Made by a program: the position numbers and the translations under genes. Shown one piece after another: positions 53,191 through 54,586 of a stretch of 64,000 nt of DNA. The first letter of the stretch is position 1; the number at the start of each line of letters is the position of its first letter. The stretch lies in assembly GCF_003856835.1 (NCBI RefSeq), contig NZ_CP034145.1:2790001-2854000 (forward strand), read 5' to 3'. Source of the stretch: Haloplanus aerogenes. Its GTDB lineage: Archaea; Halobacteriota; Halobacteria; Halobacteriales; Haloferacaceae. The notes below the pieces were generated by a model. The model was not told where the DNA came from. It did no database searches and saw only the letters and a program-made list of their open reading frames with translations.

Positions 53191-53506
53191 GACGGAACGG
53201 AACCGGCCATCGCCGACGGCGGCCGAGAACGATAACCCGTACGAGGATCGGTGGCCGCGCGACGCGGCTGCCGGTTGTTTCCACTAATCGCCAGACTGCG
53301 GCGGGTCGATGGGCGAGCTTTCTGCCGTGAAGACCGTATTCAACGACACCCTGAGCCCCAAATGTTGCTCTAATTATCACTAACGATATTCAAACGCCCG
53401 GATTTATCACTCATCGCCACATCTGTCGGGTCAACACGCCGACGCGTGCCCGTGCGGGAGCAGCGAAACCGATCCCCCCGGCTCCGGCCCGGCGTGTCGA
53501 CAAACC
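53191..53506. other. Intergenic region before the first pilin gene
   Basis: 316 nt between sdhA and the pilin. The first half is GC-rich without features that I can name. From 53360 it is AT-rich, with two TTATCAC elements (53374-53380 and 53404-53410); the second, in ATTTATCAC, is the likely box A. The last 67 nt are the pilin leader with the 59-nt element at 53440-53498. Confidence 0.5.
53440..53498 (+). promoter_or_regulatory. Conserved 59-nt pilin leader element, copy 1
   Basis: This stretch is identical over 59 nt to 54075-54133, upstream of the second pilin. It contains short hairpins (CCCG-TG-CGGG near 53450) and ends 8 nt before the start codon. Given the box A ATTTATCAC at 53402-53410, it would occupy nearly all of the 5 prime untranslated region. 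Confidence 0.7.
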
Positions 53507-53926
53507 ATGCAACTGAAAGAACTACTGACAGAGGACCGCGCAGTCAGCCCGGTCATCGGCGTGATTCTGATGGTGGCCATCACCGTCATTCTCGCCGCCG
53601 TGATCGGCACGTTCGTCCTCGGACTGGGCGACCAGGTGAGCGAGAGTGCACCGCAAGCTAGCTTCAGCTTCGACTTCGACGTTGCGGACAACAGCAGCGT
53701 GACACTCACGCACGAAGGCGGCGAAACGCTGGAGAACAGTAACATCGGTGTGAGCGGTGACAATGGCGCTCCCAACGACGCCAACAATTTCACCGGAGAT
53801 ACGATCACCGCCGGTGACTCCTCCGTCTATGGGAGCATCGACTCCGGCGAAACGATCCGTGTGATCTGGACGAATCCCGCTGGGGGAGAAACGAACACCA
53901 TCGCCCGCGCGACTGCACCGCAGTAA
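53507..53926 (+). CDS. Type IV pilin (PilA family), copy 1
   Basis: A 139-residue archaeal adhesion pilin. [20 protein letters not shown] is a class III signal cut by prepilin peptidase PibD next to the conserved Ser-Pro, with hydrophobic helix residues 14-40 ([20 protein letters not shown]). The 100-residue outer domain ends in TIARATAPQ. The first 48 residues and the last 20 are almost identical to those of the pilin at 54143; the middle differs. Confidence 0.88.
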   Translation: MQLKELLTEDRAVSPVIGVILMVAITVILAAVIGTFVLGLGDQVSESAPQASFSFDFDVADNSSVTLTHEGGETLENSNIGVSGDNGAPNDANNFTGDTITAGDSSVYGSIDSGETIRVIWTNPAGGETNTIARATAPQ

Positions 53927-54017
53927 TCCGACTGCGGTATCGCCATACCATTTTTCGCGAGCTAACACACGTCAGGAGCGACTGTACTGGGAGATGGGTG
54001 GCCCTTAGATATCGCTG

Positions 54018-54045
54018 GTGATAATTTGCTACGCAAATTTATCAC
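54018..54045. promoter_or_regulatory. Inverted repeat covering the box A of pilin 2
   Basis: GTGATAATTTGC (54018-54029), TAC, then GCAAATTTATCAC (54033-54045): arms of 12 and 13 nt that pair except for one extra A. The right arm contains ATTTATCAC, the element 106 nt upstream of the pilin start that matches the box A position of pilin 1. It is a candidate operator. Confidence 0.55.
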
Positions 54046-54074
54046 GTGCGGGCGCATTTTCCGCACTAACACGT

Positions 54075-54133
54075 CGACGCGTGCCCGTGCGGGAGCAGCG
54101 AAACCGATCCCCCCGGCTCCGGCCCGGCGTGTC
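54075..54133 (+). promoter_or_regulatory. Conserved 59-nt pilin leader element, copy 2
   Basis: Identical to 53440-53498. The element lies at the same distance from its box A and its start codon as the first copy, with different sequence on both sides (upstream spacer and the 9 nt before the ATG). Confidence 0.7.
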
Positions 54134-54142
54134 CACGCAATC

Positions 54143-54586
54143 ATGCAACTGAAAACCCTACTGACGGAAGACCGCGCAGTCAGCCCGGTCATCGGCGTGA
54201 TTCTGATGGTGGCCATTACCGTCATTCTCGCCGCCGTGATCGGCACCTTCGTCCTCGGCCTGGGCGACCAAGTGAGCGACAACGCACCGCAAGCCAGCTT
54301 CAGCTTCGAATTTACCGATAACGGCGGATTCGACGGCGGGTCCGGTGACTACGTGAATATCACGCACGACGGTGGCGAGACGCTCGACAACTCGACACTC
54401 GAAGTGCAGGGCGACGGAGCGAACGACCTCGCATACGTCAGCGACTCGACCTGGGACGACGCCATCTCTTCGGGAGACCAGATCAGCTACGAGAACGTCA
54501 ACAGCGGCGAGACGGTCCGTGTCGTCTGGACCAACCCCAACGGCGGCAGCACGAGCACTATCGCTCGCGCGACTGCACCGCAGTAA
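54143..54586 (+). CDS. Type IV pilin (PilA family), copy 2
   Basis: A 147-residue pilin with the same signal and helix as copy 1 ([20 protein letters not shown]) and a diverged outer domain ([20 protein letters not shown], then [20 protein letters not shown]). It ends with the same TIARATAPQ. Tandem duplication followed by divergence of the exposed domain is the simplest history. PilA pilins mediate adhesion. Confidence 0.88.

Follow-up and report, generated by a model that had tools for sequence, protein, structure and literature searches.

A conserved, pilin-specific 5' leader in Haloplanus that may act as a structured untranslated region

The closest described counterparts of the element reported here were studied in Haloferax volcanii (H. 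volcanii). Leaderless transcripts are stated, for H. volcanii, to be typical for haloarchaea, and the pilA4-pilA3 transcript of this organism carries a 5'-UTR of >100 nt, described as 'rare for haloarchaeal transcripts' (PMC6490895). In H. volcanii, translation was abolished when a stem-loop in the 5'-UTR of the hp transcript was stabilised and became high and constitutive when it was destabilised, and the native stem-loop conferred growth-phase control on reporters jointly with the 3' UTR (PMC2636863). At the DNA level, deletion of CsmR, whose H. volcanii motif is TATCA(N4)TGATA, raises the pilin genes (PMC13286277). Structured 5' UTRs are already known in haloarchaea as a kind of element; the leader described here from Haloplanus is new, clearly conserved and tied to pilins. 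Literature searches, with most subscription papers lying outside their coverage, found no report of a pilin-leader RNA, and Rfam 15 gave no gathering-score match in the whole window, the leader region drawing, in a permissive scan, only a single chance match (E 0.61) that fell far short of gathering.

The window is a 64,000-nt stretch of the Haloplanus aerogenes genome (contig NZ_CP034145.1, positions 2,790,001 to 2,854,000). It contains two tandem genes whose products match Pilin_N (PF07790) with 90.8 and 92.1 bits at a cut-off of 25.2, which identifies both as archaeal type IV pilins. Their features, including the arms of the predicted closing (P1) and inner (P3) helices, are listed below in window coordinates.

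53372..53391, no strand assigned: palindrome AATTATC-N6-GATATTC, CsmR-like, upstream of the box A of pilin 1
53402..53410, plus strand: box A of pilin 1, ATTTATCAC, from the sequence and the box A-leader spacing
53434..53498, plus strand: leader copy 1, 65 nt, whose start is the predicted transcription start; P1 arms 53434-53441 and 53490-53497, P3 arms 53450-53458 and 53474-53481, variable apical loop 53459-53473
53507..53926, plus strand: pilin 1, 139 aa, Pilin_N PF07790 by domain match
54007..54026, no strand assigned: palindrome AGATATC-N6-GATAATT, CsmR-like, upstream of the box A of pilin 2
54037..54045, plus strand: box A of pilin 2, ATTTATCAC, from the sequence and the box A-leader spacing
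54069..54133, plus strand: leader copy 2, 65 nt; P1 arms 54069-54076 and 54125-54132, P3 arms 54085-54093 and 54109-54116
54143..54586, plus strand: pilin 2, 147 aa, Pilin_N PF07790 by domain match

A sequence-only reading of this locus had singled out a 59-nt identity between the two upstream regions, framed by differing bases, lying at an equal box A-ATG distance of about 105 nt and followed by diverged coding parts. The match of 53440-53498 with 54075-54133, read from the sequence, is indeed exact; the bordering bases differ between the copies (C/T on the 5' side and G/C on the 3' side), and with one 5' mismatch allowed the match extends to 65 of 66 nt (53433-53498 with 54068-54133; 98%). 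The distance from box A to the ATG also agrees, at 105 nt for pilin 1 (ATG 53507) and 106 nt for pilin 2 (ATG 54143). The divergence of the coding parts applies to the protein tails (52% identical) and the later coding sequence (61%), but not to the first 105 nt of the CDS, which are still 93% identical; the promoter spacers of the pair share 44%. Chance is excluded as the source of the leader identity because a search of the organism's own genome returned the self and twin matches at 129 and 115 bits, with the next match at 31 bits. Four Pilin_N genes were found in the genome, and only those of the window pair are preceded by the leader.

BLAST searches with the leader against 99 genomes, its own included, found it in all 11 other Haloplanus genomes, often in two or three copies, and outside the genus returned only short, weak matches in four genomes of other genera (best E 6.7e-4). 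Searching 170 family genomes with a covariance model derived from 22 leaders retrieved 23 matches at E <= 8.4e-5, each lying directly before a pilin in one of the 12 Haloplanus genomes (12/12); beyond Haloplanus the model did not find the leader in these 170 genomes, the best outside match having an E of 0.0015. The search before other pilins and in relatives that had been suggested for the 59-mer recovered the leader throughout the genus. As all 23 matches fall in Haloplanus and all precede pilins, the leader is, at the sequence level, a pilin-specific genus trait.

The position of the leader is equally constrained: in 22 of 22 alignable copies its start lies 31–33 nt downstream of the first box A base, and the end of its 3' arm lies 6–10 nt upstream of the ATG. 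The usual archaeal spacing from box A would put the transcription start at the first bases of the leader. Given these spacings, the leader should constitute almost the whole 5' UTR of the pilin mRNA, with the start predicted from the box A spacing. The copies range from 53 to 65 nt, and this 12-nt variation is mostly confined to the loop while the arms stay; one copy (L023) shows an additional 4-nt loss in an internal loop. A leader-encoded peptide was considered and rejected, for the leader contains no ATG and lengths of 53–65 nt keep no reading frame. Separately, the 23rd and most divergent copy (L105 of genome G011), which precedes a tandem pilin, is degenerate, with several P1 pairs that look broken by eye; it was left out of the 22-sequence alignment and may illustrate what loss of the leader element looks like.

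Selection on the leader and recent gene conversion had been posed as alternatives for the identity, and each turns out to hold in part. Across 79 orthologous pairs, defined as reciprocal best matches on the tail, leaders are 81% identical, as against 37% for the 25-nt promoter spacer and 65% for four-fold sites at the beginning of the CDS (first 105 nt; 1053 of 1625 identical, counted where the first two codon bases agree). Orthologous leaders are therefore conserved above the neutral expectation at the same position, and the refuting case of leaders as different between strains as the coding regions was not found across the 12 Haloplanus genomes. Selection on the leader is supported by these alignments, since it is conserved genus-wide between two unconserved flanks and keeps fixed distances to box A and the ATG.

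Within genomes, a second process appears to have been superimposed. Paralogous leaders of one genome are 88.6% identical, compared to 81.0% for orthologous leaders, and the apical loop, which varies freely between species, is yet identical in both window copies (AGCGAAACCGAT). Two copies of the related genome G002 share another loop; in all, loops common to two paralogues were seen within G000, G002, G008 and G001, pointing to concerted evolution. For pilin 1, tail identity to a G003 pilin is 83% and leader identity 88%; for pilin 2, compared with another G003 pilin, the values are 76% for the tail and 83% for the leader. The window leaders, at 98%, are closer to each other than to either counterpart. 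Because the tails are closer to the G003 orthologues and the leaders closer to each other, these comparisons indicate that the pilin duplication predates the species split and that the leaders were homogenised later. Judged from the alignments, the exact identity of the window copies needs recent gene conversion between the tandem paralogues, on top of selection, because the loop is identical despite diverged protein tails. The window copies differ in the 8–9-nt linker that separates the leader from the ATG, which shows that no single continuous recent tract replaced both the leader and the coding start.

The extreme form of this explanation, in which the identity purely records a recent duplication or conversion and the leader itself is functionless, would fit both the greater likeness of paralogous leaders within a genome and the identity of the normally variable loop in the window pair. 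We regard it as very improbable: it is already largely refuted by the conservation of the leader over 12 species, which exceeds that of four-fold sites and contrasts with the unconserved flanks, and a single tract spanning leader and CDS does not account for the diverged linker. Selection, in our reading, explains the existence of the leader across the genus, and gene conversion explains the exact identity.

RNAalifold predicts that the leader folds by a closing helix, P1, in which ACACGYCG pairs with CGGCGUGU, and an inner helix, P3, in which CCG.G.GGG pairs with CCC.C.CGG around the variable loop. Over the 22 sequences, 323 of 330 P1 and P3 cells (97.9%) can pair, compared to at most 53.4% in slid controls; two pairs have changed on both sides (three cells), giving a covariation score that 12 of 500 shuffles also attained. 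The energies speak less clearly: the consensus energy of the alignment was matched in 33 of 500 column shuffles, and although single leaders are predicted to fold with about -23 to -32 kcal/mol, this is ordinary with respect to dinucleotide shuffles (mean z -0.73 sense and -0.54 antisense for the 22 leaders). The RNA structure envisaged in the sequence-only reading is thus backed by near-universal pairing and, thinly, by covariation but not by folding energy, and the end-closing hairpin is favoured as the best, though not a proven, model. For leader copy 1 (53430-53500), the minus strand is predicted to give the more stable fold (z -3.07 vs -1.79 for the sense strand), which is not general over the 22 leaders; this and the apparently broken P1 pairs of L105 weigh against the hairpin.

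The same data can be read at the level of DNA, with a regulator or nucleoid protein binding the initially transcribed region and the complementary arms forming the dyad of its binding site. The high conservation of the unpaired stretches of the leader and the failure of folding energy to favour either strand are what such a site would predict. However, the arms shift apart by up to 12 nt, which exceeds one helical turn, and several one-sided changes keep G-U pairs of the sense strand, such as a G in P1 that faces C in 8 and U in 14 of 22 sequences, so that we consider a DNA element unlikely. A further possibility retains RNA but makes it a two-state riboregulator, in which the end-closed fold (P1 and P3) exchanges with a mutually exclusive one, GACGCG:CGUGUC together with GGAGC:GCUCC, under a ligand, protein or salt cue. 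The second fold is pairable in 95.1% of cells, against 97.9% for the first, and single sequences split between the two in predicted ensembles; however, it gains no support from covariation, all 500 of 500 shuffles reaching its score, and no ligand or protein is known for it, leaving this version less probable than a DNA site.

Returning to the end-closing hairpin, we think it reasonably probable, though well short of assured, that the leader is a structured 5' UTR by which the translation or stability of the pilin mRNA is controlled. In this model, the 59-mer would be the core of an untranslated 5' leader, conserved and specific to pilins, with transcription predicted to begin at the first bases of this leader. 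The extreme 5' end of the RNA (ACACGYCG) would pair with CGGCGUGU, ending about 8 nt before the AUG, while the inner helix (CCG.G.GGG with CCC.C.CGG) would bear a loop free to vary. Such a hairpin would most likely keep the pilin mRNA in a state of limited, adjustable translation and may additionally shield its 5' end from decay, and pilin output could thereby be set after transcription.

Set beside the described systems, the leader resembles pilA4-pilA3 of H. volcanii in belonging to a haloarchaeal mRNA for PilA-type pilins whose 5' UTR is unusually long; however, sequence similarity between the two is not established, and the available description of that transcript does not mention structure or conservation (PMC6490895). 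With the hp stem-loop, as examined in H. volcanii reporters, it would share a hairpin in a haloarchaeal 5' UTR, one that sets translation efficiency there. The differences are that the hp stem-loop, at -7.4 kcal/mol, is a weak one from another gene and depends on the 3' UTR for growth-phase control (PMC2636863), whereas the Haloplanus leader is predicted to reach about -23 to -32 kcal/mol.

Long leaders that differ in sequence from this one stand before other pilin genes, and similar closing stems may precede other haloarchaeal pilins. The strongest case comes from a genus of 15 genomes (g28) that, judged by its pilin operon, is probably Haloferax: in 11 sequences upstream of pilins beginning MDIK (L183, L186, L190, L199, L202, L205, L206 and L208-L211), a 9-bp closing helix with zero broken pairs ends about 10 nt before the ATG, and with a 12th sequence included none of 200 column shuffles equalled this class. 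The remaining leader classes of g28 were equalled in 3, 13 and 66 of 200 shuffles; by this measure, class B among the four is clearly structured, D (three sequences) weaker, and A and C not significant. In Haloplanus itself, we observed a second leader type, with closing arms CGCCGAA and TTCGGCG, in 3 of the 12 genomes, before a dispersed, solitary pilin paralogue (L102, L103 and L104).

Order-wide tests gave a mixed picture, and many of the pilins in them are non-independent because they belong to related species. Between 54 pilins and 120 control genes, a single-sequence closing-stem score showed no enrichment (p = 0.89), and fold-energy z differed (-0.96 vs -0.34, p = 0.0075). Testing another 37 pilins for a contiguous helix likewise revealed no enrichment (4/37 vs 6/120 controls). 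A looser duplex test, defined after these two failed tests and after inspection of the sequences, was passed at p <= 0.05 by 12/60, 6/37 and 5/51 pilins as against 5/120 controls, the set of 51 being the 54 minus three Haloplanus-type leaders; this amounts to 18/97 for the two later sets (Fisher 7e-4) and 23/148 for all sets (p = 0.0024). Taken together, similar stems before other haloarchaeal pilins are suggested by the sequences, with one class strongly supported and a modest order-wide enrichment. The broader proposition, that haloarchaeal adhesion-pilin mRNAs as a class have an extreme 5' end that folds back to no more than about 10 nt from the AUG, in an architecture that recurs while its sequence is lineage-specific, and form a widespread, possibly bistable riboregulatory module, is one that we put forward tentatively and consider doubtful. 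In addition, a GTGT / GGYGTG motif was noticed post hoc 5–24 nt before the ATG of 24/84 pilins compared to 2/120 control genes; in 60 further pilins, GTGT occurred in 11, against the same 2/120 controls (p 1.2e-4), and enrichment was absent at two other offsets.

Upstream of the leader lies a second element. Haloplanus pilin promoters contain, exactly or nearly, the palindrome that adjoins box A in the window, with an exact TATC-N6-GATA in 14 of 22. Searching the H. aerogenes genome for AATTATC-N6-GATAATT with <=2 mismatches located 10 places (control 0): the two pilins and sites near an archaellin, FlaC/FlaDE, a chemotaxis receptor, a HalX response regulator, a histidine kinase, a universal stress protein, an ABC transporter and a gene left unassigned. 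The palindrome adjoining box A of the window pilins and archaellum genes fits the CsmR operator of H. volcanii (PMC13286277); as distinct from the leader, it is a DNA site lying upstream, and its binding by a Haloplanus CsmR is putative. Together with the leader, the palindrome suggests that pili and archaella may share one regulator in Haloplanus.

A conserved structured leader limited to surface-filament genes marks a place where archaea may control a filament after transcription; it stands out as a possible post-transcriptional control point because haloarchaeal transcripts are typically leaderless, as stated for H. volcanii (PMC6490895). The leader also offers a compact test system: it comprises a single hairpin, 12 species supply natural variants of it, and the tandem copies can be exchanged. 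If folded pilin 5' UTRs do prove to be class-wide, they would constitute a widespread archaeal riboregulatory module in organisms with typically leaderless mRNAs.
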